Below are positions 24,096 through 32,469 of a stretch of DNA of 32,469 bases, in pieces. Location: positions 1-32,469 of the forward strand of contig JAAFIB010000029.1 of the NCBI GenBank assembly GCA_013297725.1, given 5' to 3'. Made by a program: the position numbers and the translations under genes. Numbering within the stretch: position 1 is the stretch's first letter; each line of letters starts with the position of its first letter. Source of the stretch: Sphingomonadales bacterium. Its GTDB lineage: Bacteria > Pseudomonadota > Alphaproteobacteria > Sphingomonadales > Sphingomonadaceae. The notes under the pieces are model-generated. The model searched no databases. It was not told where the DNA came from and was given only the letters and a program-made list of their open reading frames with translations.

Positions 24096-25229
24096 TCAAT
24101 CGGTAAGGTCGTCCCAGATATTTTTGATCCGGTCAAAAAAGCCGCGCGATTGTGGGCATTCTTCACCGGTTTCAGTTTCGCGGAATTCGCACAATATCTC
24201 TTTTTGCCTTGCGGTCAGTCGGCTTGGCGTTTCGACATCAATCTGGATCACAAGATCGCCATGCCCCCGCCCCTGCAATACCGGCATGCCAGCACCGCGC
24301 TGACGCAGTTGCTTGCCTGACTGGATGCCTTCGGGGATGTTAATCACATGCCGCTTGCCGTCCATGCCGGGGATGACGATTTCGCCGCCCAAAGCCGCGG
24401 TCGTAAAGCTGATCGGTGCTTGGCAGAATAACGTCGTTCCTTCGCGCTGGAACACACTGTGCCGCGCGACATGGATAAAGATATACAGATCGCCTGCGGA
24501 TGCGCCATTTGGTCCAGCCTCGCCTTTGCCAGCAACGCGAATGCGCGTGCCTTCATCGACACCCGGCGGGATATCGATGCTGATTGATTTACGCGCCTCC
24601 ACCCGGCCGTCACCGCCGCATTTACGGCATGGGCTTTCGATCACTTCGCCGCGACCATGGCAGGTCGGGCAGGTGCGTTCGACCACGAAAAAGCCCTGCT
24701 GCGCGCGCACTTTACCGTGGCCTGCGCACAAATTGCATTGGCGTTTACCTGTGCCGGGCTGCGCGCCGGAACCAGCACAATCATCGCATTGGTCAGCAAC
24801 ATCGATTTTGATCTCGGTCGTTTTGCCGTGGAACGCCTCATCCAAAGTGATTTCCAGATCATAGCGCAGATCTGCACCGCGCGCTGGCCCGCGCTGACGA
24901 CCGCCGCCAAAGGCATCGCCGAAAAAGCTTTCAAAAATATCGCTGAAATCACCAAAGCCTTGCGACTGGCCTCCGCCGCCGCCGCCGCCCATGCCGCCAT
25001 TTTCAAACGCAGCTTTACCAAAACGGTCATAGGCGGCACGCTTTTGCGGATCTTTCAGGCAGTCATACGCAGCCGAAATCGCCTTAAACTTGGCCTCGGA
25101 CTTGTCACAGCCGGGGTTGCGGTCGGGATGGCATTCCATCGCGATCCGGCGATAGGCGGACTTCAGCGTCTTTTCATCCGCTGTCCGCTCAACTTCTAAC
25201 AGTTCGTAATAGTCGATATCGAGACTCAT
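24096..25229 (-). CDS. dnaJ: molecular chaperone DnaJ
   Basis: The co-chaperone that delivers unfolded proteins to DnaK and stimulates its ATPase. The 377-residue protein has a J domain (DYYELLEVERTADEKTLK with the HPD motif in MECHPDRNPG), a Gly/Phe-rich region with a run of seven glycines, and the four zinc repeats CDDCAGSG, CNLCAGHG, CPTCHGRG and CRKCGGDG. The C-terminal substrate-binding domains complete a full-length class A DnaJ. A GAGGG site precedes the ATG. It lies 67 bp downstream of dnaK, and a stem-loop sits in the gap. Confidence 0.98.
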   Translation of the reverse strand: MSLDIDYYELLEVERTADEKTLKSAYRRIAMECHPDRNPGCDKSEAKFKAISAAYDCLKDPQKRAAYDRFGKAAFENGGMGGGGGGGQSQGFGDFSDIFESFFGDAFGGGRQRGPARGADLRYDLEITLDEAFHGKTTEIKIDVADQCDDCAGSGAQPGTGKRQCNLCAGHGKVRAQQGFFVVERTCPTCHGRGEVIESPCRKCGGDGRVEARKSISIDIPPGVDEGTRIRVAGKGEAGPNGASAGDLYIFIHVARHSVFQREGTTLFCQAPISFTTAALGGEIVIPGMDGKRHVINIPEGIQSGKQLRQRGAGMPVLQGRGHGDLVIQIDVETPSRLTARQKEILCEFRETETGEECPQSRGFFDRIKNIWDDLTD

Positions 25230-25251
25230 GACCGACGCCCTCTAAAGCTGA

Positions 25252-25285
25252 GGCCGCCACCCTGCGGTAAGCAGGGGTGACGGCC
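25252..25285 (-). promoter_or_regulatory. stem-loop between dnaK and dnaJ
   Basis: On the transcribed strand the arms GGCCGTCACCCCTGC and GCAGGGTGGCGGCC pair with one bulge and one wobble-type mismatch around a 5-base loop. There is no U-run, so it is not a classical terminator. Its position suggests a partial attenuator or an RNA-stabilising element that sets the dnaK:dnaJ ratio; that role is inference. Confidence 0.65.
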
Positions 25286-25296
25286 ACGCGCAATCA

Positions 25297-27204
<1,908 letters not shown>

Positions 27205-27891: not shown

Positions 27892-28356
27892 ATGTTCGGA
27901 CCGCATCCCTCTGGCCGGGCAATGACGAGCCGCGAAATTGCGTTGGCACGTTCTGTCTTTGGCGATGCGCTGGATTATGCCAAAATCCGCATACACAAAC
28001 GCAAATGGTGGTGGTTCCAGCCCCGCAAGATCACGATGGCACCCGATGGGCATTTATGGTTTCATCCTGACAGCCAATTGTTCTGCGACGATTTCTGCGA
28101 CCGTGATTTAAGCCTGCAAGGGCTGTTCATCCACGAGCTTGTCCATGTGTGGCAGCATCAGCAGGGCATTTTCCTGCCGCTGAAACGCCATCCGTTTTGC
28201 CGTTATGATTACAGCCTGAAACCCGGCTGGAAGCTGCAGCAATATGGCATCGAGCAACAGGCCGAAATCGTCCGCCATGTATTTTTGTTAAAGAACGGGG
28301 CGAAGGTTGCGGGTGCGCCGCCGCTGAACCAATATGACGGCGTGCTGCCGTTTTAA
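27892..28356 (+). CDS. small HExxH protein (vgr-related family)
   Basis: A 154-residue protein with a zinc-metallopeptidase-like HELVH motif (His81, Glu82, His85) followed by WQHQQG, and a later Glu in GIEQQAEIVRH that could be the third ligand. Similar small proteins in sphingomonads are labelled vgr-related, but there is no type VI secretion gene here and the name carries no functional weight. No signal peptide is present. A Met at codon 11 (MTSREIALARSVFG) is an alternative start, since family members tend to begin near that point. It follows the copper chaperone by 32 bp. Its stop overlaps that of the convergent MATE gene by 4 bp. Confidence 0.75.
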   Translation: MFGPHPSGRAMTSREIALARSVFGDALDYAKIRIHKRKWWWFQPRKITMAPDGHLWFHPDSQLFCDDFCDRDLSLQGLFIHELVHVWQHQQGIFLPLKRHPFCRYDYSLKPGWKLQQYGIEQQAEIVRHVFLLKNGAKVAGAPPLNQYDGVLPF

Positions 28357-29753
28357 TGGGCGTTTGTATCTGGCAACAAACTCAATCGGTCGCGCCACAT
28401 CCAGCGGACCAGCACTAGCCCGGCCACTATTCCCAACCCCAATGCTAGCCCAAGCCAAATGCCTACTCCGGCAAAGCCGCCGTAAAAGGCCAGCCAACAA
28501 CCCACGCCAATGCCGATCACCCAATAGCCAAACGCCGCAAACAGCATCGGCCAAGTCGTATCCTGCAACCCGCGCAACATGCCGGTGCCGACAACTTGCG
28601 CGCCATCGACAATCTGGAACACCGCCGCAACCAGCAGGAACGAAACGGCGAGTTTTATCACCTCGGCATTGCCCTTGTTTTCAGGTTCCAGAAATATCTC
28701 GGCCAGCGGCCCCGGGATCAACCACATGACCACCGCCATTGCCGTCATAAAACCAACGCCCAGCGCATAGGCCGTCCACCCTGCCCGCCGGATCGCCTCT
28801 GCATCGCGCCGTCCATAGCCCAAACCAACACGCACCGTTGCCGCCTGTCCGATGCCCATCGGCACCATAAACGTCATCGATGCAATCTGGATCGCAATGG
28901 CGTGCGCCGCAACCGAGGCGGTATTGATATAACCCATCAAGAATGCTGCAGCGGCAAAGACCATCGCCTCAAAACCCATGTGCAAACCAATGGGCAGGCC
29001 TAGCCTCCACAATGTTGCAAAGCGCGGCCAATCGGACCGCCACCAACGGCCAAACAGCCGATAACGGCGAAAGCGGGGATGATAGGAAAGGATCAACGCC
29101 AGAAAGACAAATTGGAACAGCGCAGTCAGTGAACTGCCCACACCTGCACCAAATAGCCCCCATGCGGGCAGCCCGAAATTGCCAAAAATCAGCCCGTAGT
29201 TGATGACTGCATTGACGACCACTGCGGCAAATCCGGCAATCATCGTCCAGCGCGGCATTTCCAGTGCAGCCATAAAGCCGCGGATCGCGACTACGCCAAG
29301 CGCAGGCCAGATCTGCCACATCAGCGCGCGGATAAAAAGGCCCGCATCGGCGGCCAGCTGCTTAGGCTGCCCCGCCCATTCCAGCAACGCACCCATCTGC
29401 CAAAGGATTGCCCAGATCGGAATGCAGATTGCCGTTGCCGCCCATAATGTCTGCCGAAATGTGCGCCGCACATCACGCACCGAATGTGCCTTACGGCCAA
29501 GCTCCGCCGCCATCAAAGGCGACCCTGCAACCACAATGCCGATACCGATCAATAGCATCGCGATAACAATGCCAGACCCAAGCGCCGACGCCGCCAGCGC
29601 ATCTGGCCCCAGCCGCGCGAGCAGGAACACATCAGTCGCGTTGATCAGCACCATTGTGATGTTGGTCAGGATCAACGGCCAAGCCAGCGCCAAAGTGGCA
29701 CGAAACTCGTCGCGCCACGGGGATGTTACAGGAGAAGTTACAACAGAGTTCAT
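28353..29753 (-). CDS. MATE-family multidrug/toxin efflux transporter
   Basis: A 466-residue inner-membrane antiporter of the MATE family, expelling cationic compounds with Na+ or H+ exchange. About twelve hydrophobic helices can be counted. The first helix region (LALAWPLILTNITMVLINATDVFLLARLG) and the pseudo-symmetric second half (TLWRLGLPIGLHMGFEAMVFAAAAFLMG) match the NorM layout. The start at MNSVVTSPVTSPWRDEF is preferred to an open frame 43 codons longer, which would run into the divergent gene. The substrate cannot be predicted. The 46 bp to the divergent phosphatidyltransferase must hold both promoters, unless they overlap the genes. Confidence 0.92.
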   Translation of the reverse strand: MNSVVTSPVTSPWRDEFRATLALAWPLILTNITMVLINATDVFLLARLGPDALAASALGSGIVIAMLLIGIGIVVAGSPLMAAELGRKAHSVRDVRRTFRQTLWAATAICIPIWAILWQMGALLEWAGQPKQLAADAGLFIRALMWQIWPALGVVAIRGFMAALEMPRWTMIAGFAAVVVNAVINYGLIFGNFGLPAWGLFGAGVGSSLTALFQFVFLALILSYHPRFRRYRLFGRWWRSDWPRFATLWRLGLPIGLHMGFEAMVFAAAAFLMGYINTASVAAHAIAIQIASMTFMVPMGIGQAATVRVGLGYGRRDAEAIRRAGWTAYALGVGFMTAMAVVMWLIPGPLAEIFLEPENKGNAEVIKLAVSFLLVAAVFQIVDGAQVVGTGMLRGLQDTTWPMLFAAFGYWVIGIGVGCWLAFYGGFAGVGIWLGLALGLGIVAGLVLVRWMWRDRLSLLPDTNAH

Positions 29754-29799
29754 TGGAAATCGGCTTGCGTTATTGGCGGCATAAGAGCAACTGCATCTT

Positions 29800-30495
29800 T
29801 TGAATTTTGTATCAGGTCGCAAGCCATTGAATTCGCCGAAACGCATACAGGAAAATCTGACCGCCGCAGTTGAACGGCGCATCCTTAACTGGATTTGTGA
29901 ACGTCTGCCTTTGTGGTGGACGCCCGACCGGCTGACAGCGGTTGGTTTTTCCGGCGCAGTGCTGGTCGCGATCGGCTATGTGCTCAGCATTTGGAGCCCC
30001 GCTTGGCTTTGGCTTTCGGTCGCAGGATATTGTTTTAACTGGTTCGGCGATTCATTGGATGGCAGCGTTGCCCGTTACCGAAAAATCGAGCGGCCCAACT
30101 TTGGCTATTTCATCGATCACAGCCTTGATTCTTTTTCCAACGGACTGTTGATCATCGGCATGGGGCTTAGCCCCTATGCACGGATGGACACAGCGTTGTT
30201 CGGGCTTAGTGGCTATCTATTGCTGTCGATCCACACCTTTATTTCGGCCAAAGTAGTCGGCGTCATGAACCTGACCTATCTGGGCGGCGGGCCAACCGAG
30301 GTGCGGATCATGCTGATCATCCTGACGATCTGCATGTATGTATTCGGGCCAGAGGCATGGATACACTGGCCCTTTGCCCAGCAGTTATTTTCGCCTTTTG
30401 ACATCTTCGCTGTGGTGATGGGCTTTATCCTGACCGGCATTTTCGTGTTCCACACAATGCGCACCGGCTTGGACTTATTTCGCAAGGGTGGGTGA
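29800..30495 (+). CDS. CDP-alcohol phosphatidyltransferase
   Basis: A 231-residue integral membrane enzyme that joins a CDP-activated lipid or alcohol to a second alcohol. The full catalytic motif D-x2-D-G-x2-A-R-x8-G-x3-D-x3-D is present (GDSLDGSVARYRK...FGYFIDHSLD). About six membrane helices follow the usual pattern. The product is not clear: it resembles unassigned members more than PgsA or PssA. The start is uncertain. No ATG is in a suitable place; TTG at the given position or TTG nine codons later are the candidates, and the protein from residue 14 on is conserved-looking. It is divergent from the MATE gene and may end at a weak hairpin. Confidence 0.83.
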   Translation: MNFVSGRKPLNSPKRIQENLTAAVERRILNWICERLPLWWTPDRLTAVGFSGAVLVAIGYVLSIWSPAWLWLSVAGYCFNWFGDSLDGSVARYRKIERPNFGYFIDHSLDSFSNGLLIIGMGLSPYARMDTALFGLSGYLLLSIHTFISAKVVGVMNLTYLGGGPTEVRIMLIILTICMYVFGPEAWIHWPFAQQLFSPFDIFAVVMGFILTGIFVFHTMRTGLDLFRKGG

Positions 30496-30531: not shown

Positions 30532-30542
30532 GCAATCATAGT

Positions 30543-30674
30543 CCAATCGTTTCACGCAAAGGACGCAAAGATTTTTGAAGAGTGACGATTGCGCGGCGAG
30601 TGCAGGTTCAGAAAATTCCCAATTGCAAATCCAGCTTCTTTGAAATCTTAGCGCTCTTTGCGTGAAACGACTGG
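30543..30674. repeat. palindromic repeat of the TTTCACGCAAAG type
   Basis: Arms at 30543-30580 and 30635-30674 are imperfect inverted copies: CGTTTCACGCAAAGGACGC on the left, and CGTTTCACGCAAAGAGCGC as the reverse complement on the right, each continuing to AAGATTT. The spacer is about 54 bases. From memory, sequences of the form TTTCACGCAAAGxxxGCAAAG recur as dispersed elements in many bacterial genomes. Here it fills most of the gap between the phosphatidyltransferase and the HEPN-like gene; the rest of that 243-bp gap shows nothing else. Confidence 0.75.
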
Positions 30675-30738
30675 AGGAGTTGCACTTACATGGCTGCAGA
30701 TTCACCAAAGATTTAATGATCCATGTTATTGCAGGTGA

Positions 30739-31239
30739 ATGAACGATAAAAATGGCCACGAAAATTTCGGACATGCTTTTGTTGGTAACTACCTATGTCT
30801 GTGCGCGAGAGTAGAAGACTGGACAATTTCGATCATTGCAAAGGCGCAGGACACCGGAGCCACAGCCAAAAAGACAAAAATGCCGCACCTTTTTGGCCTG
30901 AAACTTCGCGCTGTCCGCGAGCTAGCAACTGCTTCACCAACCTTGTTCAACAAGCCATCGCGTATCGTTGATCTCATGGAGCGGTTCGCGGAACCGGCAA
31001 AAATGCGTTCGAACCTCGCTCACTCCGTAGTTCGCACAGCTACTGATAAGGAAGCAACATATTGGCTATTTCACAATGTTGGAACTGATGAACGGTTTTG
31101 GCTTTTAGATGAACAAATGAAAGCTGAACTGACCGACCTCAAAAAGCTGGTGAAAGAAATCACAGATCAGAAGTTGAAAGCTGTCACTAACTCGCCTTCG
31201 CAACCCCAACCATCGCCGAGCGCAAAAGCCGGTCCTTAA
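30739..31239 (+). CDS. small alpha-helical protein with HEPN-like R-x4-H motif
   Basis: No family I can name. The 166-residue product looks all-helical and cytosolic. The core (residues about 24-145) has a VEDW helix start, a GLKLRAVREL helix, a DLMERFAEP helix running into MRSNLAHSVV, and a last helix near LTDLKKLVKEITDQ. Arg90-x4-His95 in the form R-S-N-L-A-H matches the R-N-x-L-A-H pattern of HEPN ribonucleases found in toxin and defence systems; this is motif reading only. Base composition is AT-richer than its neighbours, which suggests transfer. The last 15 residues (152-166, rich in Ser and Pro) are read from the antisense strand of a grpE remnant, so the C-terminus is newly made. The start has AGG four bases upstream. 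Confidence 0.6.
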   Translation: MNDKNGHENFGHAFVGNYLCLCARVEDWTISIIAKAQDTGATAKKTKMPHLFGLKLRAVRELATASPTLFNKPSRIVDLMERFAEPAKMRSNLAHSVVRTATDKEATYWLFHNVGTDERFWLLDEQMKAELTDLKKLVKEITDQKLKAVTNSPSQPQPSPSAKAGP

Positions 31240-31267
31240 TTATATACCCCACCTGCATTTCGGCACC
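31187..31267 (-). pseudogene. remnant of a second grpE 3' end
   Basis: Read on the minus strand this gives AEMQVGYIIKDRLL then RSAMVGVAKAS and a TAG stop. The real grpE ends AEMQAGYMIKDRLL then RPAMVGVAKAAD. Over 73 ungapped bases (31193-31265 against 32080-32152) I count 58 identities; at the protein level 21 of 24 residues match. Most differences are silent, so the two copies diverged while both were under selection as grpE. That points to a copy acquired from a related strain rather than to decay of a recent local duplication. Homology ends abruptly next to the stop of the neighbouring gene. Confidence 0.85.
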
Positions 31268-31269
31268 AT

Positions 31270-32055
31270 TCAATGCCCACACCAGCTAGGTGCCGCTTCA
31301 TAATCTTCGCAGGCTATCCGATCCATCGCATCCAGATAAAATGGGCCACGGTTTACGCGGGTCCATTTGGTGACGGGCTTAGGCAATTCTTCGTTTTCGC
31401 CGACTTCGGTTTGCGGGCCGATATCGGACACCTTGTCGATATGTTGCTTTCGCCCGGTTAGAAAATTTATGCTCGTCCGCTCGGCCATTCCGCCAGCGCG
31501 GTGAAAGCTCCAGCTTTCCATCCCGATCAGGCGCATGCGGCCTTTCTCGGCACGAAATTTATGAGTGTTTTGATTAACGTACCACGTGCCACAGCTATAC
31601 CAGTAGTTCAGGCTGATCGAGATCACGCGGTTTTTGATTTCGATACCCGGCCCCTCCATCAACGGGTCGGCAAGACACGCGCTGTCTGGATCACCTTCGC
31701 TGGGTAGGAAATCATCATCGCGGCTTGCCACATCGTAACCATTTCCGTTTCCTGTCAGGAACAACATCGCGCGCGGGTTGGTGTTGAGTTCGCTAGCACC
31801 CATTCTATCATTGCTGACGATTTTTGCAGGATCGGTTTCCTCGATCACCAGCACAGCATCCTTGGTTTTAGGACCAAAGATGCTGCCCTCTGCAGCCAGC
31901 AAAACGCGCCAGCCCGCGGGCGCAAAGCTTCCCCATTTTTGCTGAAGCGCCAGTGCATCTGCATCAGCCTGTTCAACTTCGCTCGGCTCTTGTGCCGCAG
32001 CAACAGAGATCGAACAAAAAGCAAGAGCCGCTAGGACCAAAAATTTGCGCAACAT
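31270..32055 (-). CDS. exported protein of unknown function
   Basis: A 261-residue protein with a Sec signal peptide (LRKFLVLAALAFCSISVAAA, cleavage before QEP), so periplasmic or secreted. I do not recognise the family. The mature part has a tryptophan-rich first block (QQKWGSFAPAGWRVLLAAEG), a KTKDAVLVIEETDP strand, a middle stretch SISLNYWYSCGTWYVNQNTHKFR and several Cys (two near the C-terminus). This resembles a small beta-rich periplasmic domain. The ATG is preferred to a TTG two codons upstream; neither has a clear ribosome site. The gene lies exactly between the grpE remnant and the real grpE (its stop is 3-5 bases from the remnant, its start 16 bases from the grpE stop), which suggests it arrived with the remnant. 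Confidence 0.75.
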   Translation of the reverse strand: MLRKFLVLAALAFCSISVAAAQEPSEVEQADADALALQQKWGSFAPAGWRVLLAAEGSIFGPKTKDAVLVIEETDPAKIVSNDRMGASELNTNPRAMLFLTGNGNGYDVASRDDDFLPSEGDPDSACLADPLMEGPGIEIKNRVISISLNYWYSCGTWYVNQNTHKFRAEKGRMRLIGMESWSFHRAGGMAERTSINFLTGRKQHIDKVSDIGPQTEVGENEELPKPVTKWTRVNRGPFYLDAMDRIACEDYEAAPSWCGH

Positions 32056-32070
32056 GCGCAATCTATGCGG

Positions 32071-32469
32071 TCAATCGGCCGCCTTCGCAACCCCAACCAT
32101 TGCAGGACGCAGCAAGCGGTCTTTGATCATATAGCCAGCTTGCATTTCGGCAACGATGGTGCCCGGCGCAGCATCTGCACTGGGGATTTCAACCATCGCC
32201 TGATGCTGGTTTGGATCAAGCGGCAGGCCCATGGCGGCAATGCGGGTGATGCCGTGTTTTGAAAACACGCTGTCCAGCTCGCGGCCGGTTGCCTCCAGCC
32301 CAACGACCAGCCCTTTGAACTTCTCATCCTCTCGCAGTTCAGCAGAAATAGCATCCAGCGCGCGGGACAAATTGTCTGATACCGAAAGGATATCGCGGGC
32401 GAAGTTAGTCGCTGCGTAAGCACGCGCATCAACCGCTTCTTTTTCCATCCGGCGGCGCACATTCTGCAC
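32071..32469 (-). CDS. grpE: nucleotide exchange factor GrpE, C-terminal part
   Basis: The exchange factor that releases ADP from DnaK. The gene is cut by the window end: about 132 codons of the 3' part are present and the N-terminal coil is missing. The visible part begins in the long helix (QNVRRRMEKEAVDARAYA), continues with NFARDILSVSDNLSRAL and ends in the beta-wing domain (LPLDPNQHQAMVEIP, TIVAEMQAGYMIKDRLLRPA, VGVAKAAD). The Met at the right edge is internal, not the start. In many alphaproteobacteria hrcA precedes grpE; here that would lie outside the window. Confidence 0.95.
   Translation of the reverse strand: MQNVRRRMEKEAVDARAYAATNFARDILSVSDNLSRALDAISAELREDEKFKGLVVGLEATGRELDSVFSKHGITRIAAMGLPLDPNQHQAMVEIPSADAAPGTIVAEMQAGYMIKDRLLRPAMVGVAKAAD

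Follow-up and report, generated by a model that had tools for sequence, protein, structure and literature searches.

A displaced grpE 3' end that serves as the coding end of an accessory gene and probably moved with it among Sphingomonadaceae

A diverged second copy of the grpE 3' end, standing in the neighborhood of grpE itself, raises the question of how a fragment of a core gene came to lie apart from the gene. The window, by which we mean the whole stretch of DNA analyzed (32,469 bp), turned out to be the whole of contig C71 of a genome assembled in 148 contigs. Leftward from grpE (32071–32469, minus strand) it contains geneX (P0002; 31270–32061, minus strand), which has a signal-peptide-like start (by eye) and no assigned function, the second grpE end (31187–31267, minus strand), the P0001 gene (30739–31239, plus strand; 166 aa), a CDP-alcohol phosphatidyltransferase gene ("pgsA"; 29800–30495, plus strand) and a MATE transporter gene (28353–29882, minus strand), with dnaK and dnaJ farther left. 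The latter two occupy 24096–27204 on the same strand as grpE and about 5 kb from it, and the site described here lies in between. The grpE gene of the window, taken as intact in the first-pass annotation, is truncated by the end of contig C71 and represented by its 3' part; the full gene sits on contig C18 (L005 5166–5729), which also bears an hrcA-like ORF beside it.

The second grpE end proposed in that annotation is real. It corresponds to approximately the last 25 GrpE codons; 58 of 73 bases coincide with the intact gene at the best register, and the same orientation and the distance of about 890 bp had been given correctly. In the Pfam search of the genome, the GrpE profile matched positions 31196–31261 of the minus strand (E = 1.0e-4) with 23.1 bits, just missing the curated cut-off of 25.8, while the full-length GrpE protein of C18 matched 31190–31264 (E = 1.1e-5; residues 162–186, 84% identity over 25 residues). 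When the 73-base slice was shifted slightly, 57 bases matched, and the best among 500 simple shuffles reached 36.

The remnant differs at 14 positions from the genus consensus of 44 grpE ends. Nine of these are third codon positions of grpE, so that the earlier description of the differences as mainly silent holds. Three of its states are absent from all 44 ends; since the grpE ends of two of the 44 (G005 and G018) have as many private states or more, such states alone are no proof of decay. Judged by its sequence, the remnant spent most of its history as grpE. Some drift since its displacement is likely, the few bases concerned falling short of proof.

The suggestion that each copy evolved separately as a functional grpE gene before recombination brought them together is supported by the predominance of third-position differences and by the finding that the remnant is nearer to the grpE of some other genomes than to its own, the placement by 73 bases being weak. 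The closest ends were those of G022 (62/73) and of G011 and G032 (60/73 each), compared with 58/73 for the own gene. With its 73 bases the remnant is too short to name a donor lineage; G022 leads with a bootstrap share of 0.45, and the own two copies obtained 0.017 each. An old tandem duplication of grpE within this strain, after which only the 3' end of one copy survived, would agree with the shared orientation, the short distance and a 21-base run identical to the own copy, the longest exact run that the two have in common. Against it, the grpE genes of nine other genomes are closer over the 73 bases (by a margin of 1–4 bases), the differences are mostly in third positions, and the in-frame join to P0001 described below matches overlaps with living grpE elsewhere. 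We therefore disfavor such a duplication and regard it as very improbable.

The layout is not universal in the genus, a point on which its interpretation had been made to depend. Downstream of grpE in 42 genus genomes and at 17 loci from other genera, matches to a second grpE end remained at chance level (E of at least 0.029). The genus set comprised 42 of the 44 other genomes (all except G020 and G021, the latter having no grpE 3' end), with reduced downstream sequence in G018 (150 bp) and in G032 and G025 (about 1.5 kb each).

The nature of the remnant becomes clear from the opposite strand, which the first-pass annotation had left aside. The plus-strand ORF 30739–31239 ends within it: the last approximately 15 codons of P0001 and its stop codon lie antisense within 31187–31267. 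Thus, the remnant is the 3' end of P0001 and no free scar, and only the part past the P0001 stop codon (31240–31267, minus strand) is non-coding for P0001; it runs to a novel junction 2 bp short of the geneX stop codon. The same overlap can be seen directly with living grpE. The P0001 homologue of G011 (46–47% identity of the proteins) ends 56 bp inside the grpE gene of that genome, and genes of the same family ending 53–56 bp within living grpE were found in the genus mates G011 and G027 and in the genomes G382 and G113 of other genera. An in-frame antisense stop was detected in 42 of 44 grpE ends, including the own two; it is formed by the codons of a conserved GrpE segment, which reads IKD in most.

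The DNA of the window aligns with that of G011 through the gene body and on into the grpE end, with no shift of frame and with the stop at the same place. Identity is 226/427 in the body and 63/81 in the remnant, as expected if selection on grpE held the tail while the body changed. Because the alignment is continuous into the grpE tail, the overlap should be older than the displacement. The same continuity speaks against an independent event in which P0001, having lost its stop codon, was captured by an already displaced fragment. Mutation of the stop codon is a known route to overlaps, as described in PMC2174442, and yet we give such an independent capture very little credence.

To describe the distribution of the family, which comprises fast-changing proteins of about 165 aa with an invariant E...R-x4-H pattern, a 21-member profile (A6) was used. 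Members were present in 87 of 397 genomes sampled from Sphingomonadaceae. In the genus, 45 genomes were searched with grpE, geneX, the phosphatidyltransferase gene and P0001, and the downstream side of grpE was read in 42 of them and in the own genome. The profile matched in 12 of 45 genomes. In 10 the cargo gene is located at grpE (own, G001, G003, G011, G019, G022, G027, G037, G042 and G043), and in G026 and G039 (partial match) it is located elsewhere. A ten-member HMM recovered the P0001-type cargo among 1290 ORFs, the weakest at E = 2.4e-4 (G022). GeneX was found at grpE in the own genome, G007 and G034. The usual downstream neighbor of grpE in the genus is the MATE gene, which lies within 160 bp of it in 24 of the 42 genomes. 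It should be added that at two loci, L065 (G004) and L084 (G033), the cargo site holds ORFs resembling HNH endonucleases (by eye) instead of a P0001-type gene.

Outside the genus, 17 of 85 family matches in 80 genomes lie within 5 kb of grpE, and all 17 are downstream of it and convergent with it. We estimate that chance alone would place considerably fewer than one match near grpE in genomes of 2–7 Mb. This count took in 80 of 84 genomes, G109, G208, G268 and G311, among the weakest-scoring, having been left out. The other 68 matches are not near grpE, 52 of them lying on a different contig or in a genome where grpE was not found. The end of the cargo relative to the grpE stop codon is at -4 in five of the 17 loci, at -53/-56 in two and at +9 to +2520 in ten. 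Both the address and the orientation are observed directly. Together with the remnant, which looks like the end of a gene that took along part of another bacterium's grpE, they suggest that exchanged genes of these bacteria share a docking site. In a class-wide sample the A6 profile matched in 3 of 385 genomes, one of them the own genome; grpE was absent from the approximately 1.5 kb flanks of the three A6 loci in the two others.

Comparison of the cargo and grpE trees revealed that the two disagree. In a tree of 44 chosen family members (not all matches), the own P0001 is sister to that of G011 (support 100/96), followed by G037 (95/87) and by two genomes of another genus (95/85). In the grpE tree, made by a quick method, the own gene groups with those of G001, G007, G008, G009, G022 and G034 (SH-aLRT 94), and G011 is placed elsewhere. 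A single clade of the own, G001 and G022 cargo was rejected by the AU test (p = 1.5e-4), as was one uniting the 10 grpE-site cargoes of the genus (p = 3.1e-4); the groups were chosen after the low identities had been seen. Since G001, G022 and other cargoes are on long branches, the conflict should be read with caution; it nevertheless indicates that the gene has been swapped between genomes at the grpE address. The grpE-site label changes 4 times on the cargo tree, as compared with 13.7 times in shuffles, and one lineage appears to be resident at grpE and to pass from host to host. A single clade of all 27 grpE-site cargoes was not rejected (AU p = 0.195). Therefore, old residence at grpE together with loss and very fast change may account for part of the pattern, and a single grpE-resident lineage for all 27 cargoes is possible. 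As for the flanking genes, the MATE protein of the window (28353–29882) is 81.3% identical to that of G024, which lies outside the grpE clade of the window, 80.8% to that of the clade member G022 and 71% to that of G001; the MATE gene may also have been exchanged.

The sister genomes of the grpE clade contain the two halves of the window layout separately. The cargo without geneX was found in G001 and G022, which are organized as phosphatidyltransferase > cargo > < grpE, and geneX without the cargo in G007 and G034, organized as phosphatidyltransferase > < geneX < grpE; G008 and G009 have neither. The relatives of geneX in G007 and G034 occupy the same position and are 41–46% identical to it, and the phosphatidyltransferase gene, which forms the left flank of the cargo, is convergent with grpE in the sister clade. 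The composite can be read directly from the window: its layout is the sum of both sister layouts, joined 2 bp from the geneX stop codon. Because both are stacked in it, the cargo together with the overlapped donor grpE end was probably joined beyond geneX.

We propose the following route. The downstream side of grpE is a fixed address, where small cargo of a single gene would be exchanged among Sphingomonadaceae genomes. Genes of the P0001 family stand there convergent with grpE, some of them reaching approximately 55 bp antisense into it; these overlapping members stop at a codon supplied by conserved grpE codons, probably after their own stop codon was lost. A whole copy of an overlapping cargo would then necessarily include the donor grpE end. 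In the ancestry of the window, the layout phosphatidyltransferase > P0001 > < grpE would have recombined with phosphatidyltransferase > < geneX < grpE. One crossover would have been ordinary homologous recombination within the conserved flank, and at the other the grpE 3' end would have been joined illegitimately to the end of geneX. The tail taken from grpE would have gone on serving P0001 as coding sequence and stop codon, and it now lies 890 bp away from the living grpE. That P0001 moved with a donor grpE end into a composite locus is the account that we hold with fair confidence, and the two crossovers are what we infer as its route. Against this route, inspection of the geneX/remnant junction by eye revealed no notable sequence in common.

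Could the composite be a product of assembly? The contig might fuse two haplotypes, one with P0001 beside grpE and the other with geneX beside grpE, no single cell having both. The junction evidence comes from one assembly with mixed variants and consists of contig sequence. The versions of grpE on C18 and C71 are overlapping variants, identical at 447 of 483 aligned positions, and the assembly therefore holds two variants of the locus; C71 moreover ends inside grpE, and the two layouts occur apart in sister genomes. All this would suit a fusion. The remnant/geneX junction, on the other hand, is interior to the contig, and the 21-base shared run ends about 55 bp away from it, so that another product would be expected if the assembly graph had simply crossed at shared words. 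We consider an artefact unlikely, and movement of P0001 with the grpE end remains the preferred reading. The two versions themselves (C18, L005 5330–5814, and window 31987–32469, covering grpE and the start of geneX) differ unevenly: the 5' part of grpE is diverged, its 3' end is almost identical, and geneX is again strongly different. This pattern is a sign of mixed strains or local recombination.

Classically, accessory DNA bordered by a direct repeat of a core gene 3' end is read as an integrative element, and the att cores of such elements are near-identical. The first-pass annotation had offered two origins for the duplicated end, recombination with DNA from a relative or insertion of an element that targets or carries the grpE 3' end; the first is backed by our results, and the second is not. 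For an element using the grpE 3' end as attachment site, with the remnant as the displaced original end, the repeat around accessory DNA would fit, but geneX is the only gene between the repeats, and these are only about 80% identical (58/73). No integrase was recognized by Pfam among the 14 ORFs from 16277 to the contig end, P0001 and geneX matching no family. Furthermore, geneX stands at grpE without a repeat in G007 and G034, and no second grpE end was found at the other loci examined. Such a site-specific element was thus rejected as hardly credible at all. The notion of an element carrying the grpE 3' end proved true in another sense, the carrier being a single gene that uses this end as its own coding end.

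Exchange of cargo by homologous recombination in flanking core genes, at hotspots lacking mobile elements, is described by Oliveira et al. (2017, PMC5635113). The grpE site resembles those hotspots: variable cargo occupies a fixed place between conserved genes (MATE or phosphatidyltransferase and grpE), no integrase was seen, recombination in the flanks is the best explanation, and the history of the cargo is unlike that of grpE, with the caution due to long branches. It differs from those hotspots in that the content is often a single gene from one family, convergent with grpE at every locus examined, and in that the cargo can include part of a core gene, able to travel along. Convergent overlaps arising through stop-codon loss are likewise known (PMC2174442), and as there we find read-through to the next stop in the neighboring gene and 4-bp overlaps; unlike in those cases, the grpE overlap was apparently transferred along and outlasts the parting of both genes. 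With integrative elements in gene 3' ends the locus shares the duplicated core gene 3' end, whereas no integrase was recognized, the repeat is not near-identical and the carrier is one gene. A literature search that only partly named grpE yielded no grpE-linked cargo genes among the matches listed. The P0001 family, its grpE address and the travelling core-gene tail look new.

On the account given here, a gene fragment becomes a record of the movement of a single accessory gene, its tail telling which core gene adjoined. In one bacterial family, a recurrent exchange site thereby comes to light next to a chaperone gene that is universal, along with a probably RNase-like protein family kept at this site. 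The case also calls for caution, since a duplicate core-gene 3' end may be the end of a moved overlapping neighbor and not an integrated element.

What P0001 encodes was approached through its conserved residues. R90 and H95, which form an R-x4-H motif, are invariant in all 21 aligned members and agree with the R-x4-6-H motif of HEPN proteins. E26, upstream of the motif, is also invariant (21/21), the usual Ex3[KR] form not being evident. In 15 of 21 members R is followed by S, G or A; according to Anantharaman et al. (2013, PMC3710099), HEPN proteins typically have N, D or H at this position. The same paper places the HEPN motif at the end of helix 3 and mentions an acidic residue that is conserved; for Csx1 it describes a beta-hairpin that directly follows the motif. 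The best AlphaFold2 model of P0001 (from a 7-row alignment; pLDDT 82, others 80.3, 60.8, 58.0 and 55.7) consists of helices at residues 4–38, 52–65 and 73–94 followed by strands and a last helix, with R90-x4-H95 at the end of the third helix. P0001 is like the HEPN RNases of that paper in the invariant upstream Glu and the fast evolution; if the model is right, the position of the motif would also agree with them, and the beta-hairpin that follows with Csx1. Unlike HEPN RNases, it has no significant profile or solved-fold match, and a four-helix HEPN core is putative. A Foldseek search with the model gave no match at E ≤ 1e-3 in PDB or BFVD; no HEPN profile from Pfam, PADLOC, NCBIfam or PHROGs matched the family, and PDB sequences gave nothing usable either. 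A weak PADLOC Csx1 match (E = 0.0029), which agrees with a HEPN assignment, concerned the G003 cargo only, and the best library matches among the members of A4 concerned one member each (DUF6003, E = 9.4e-4; DUF4164, E = 0.0044; phrog_34949, E = 0.0048). On balance we lean towards predicting that this family, which has no name, is a HEPN-like RNase; this function is inferred, and a role in defence or conflict is graded lower.

Relatives of P0001 were also noted beside other genes. At L100, L102 and L104 they are convergent with the 3' end of a MATE gene, with groEL/groES-like frames opposite (by eye), and those of L102 and L104 extend with their 3' ends 44 and 47 bp into that of the MATE gene, which is the same overlap habit at another gene. 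Phage-like DNA carries further relatives (L096, L097, L119–L122). Those of L096 and L119 sit in antisense orientation between genes resembling the terminase small and large subunits, and that of L097 is beside the large-subunit-like one. Neither P0001 nor the phage-type relative from L096 had a match in the phage and plasmid record collections searched. The L096 relative is carried by four IMG/VR contigs, and the close group of P0001 (profile A2) was not found in IMG/VR; among genome contigs, A2 matched only the G011 and G037 records. It may tentatively be imagined, though we find it doubtful, that the family is a mobile single-gene lineage that carries its own homology arm in the form of the grpE overlap, allowing the gene to find the grpE 3' end again without an integrase, and that the same occurs at other conserved gene ends, such as the MATE 3' end beside groEL-like genes and the phage terminase small subunit.

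Finally, the leader between the phosphatidyltransferase gene and P0001 (30496–30738) has no homology to the leader of the G011 gene (70/175 identical positions). It contains an imperfect inverted repeat with arms at 30542–30574 and 30643–30675 (88% identity), which is possibly a small hairpin element. Similar paired arms recur in the same genome at C73:9421–9537, near an ORF that by eye resembles a valyl-tRNA synthetase gene.
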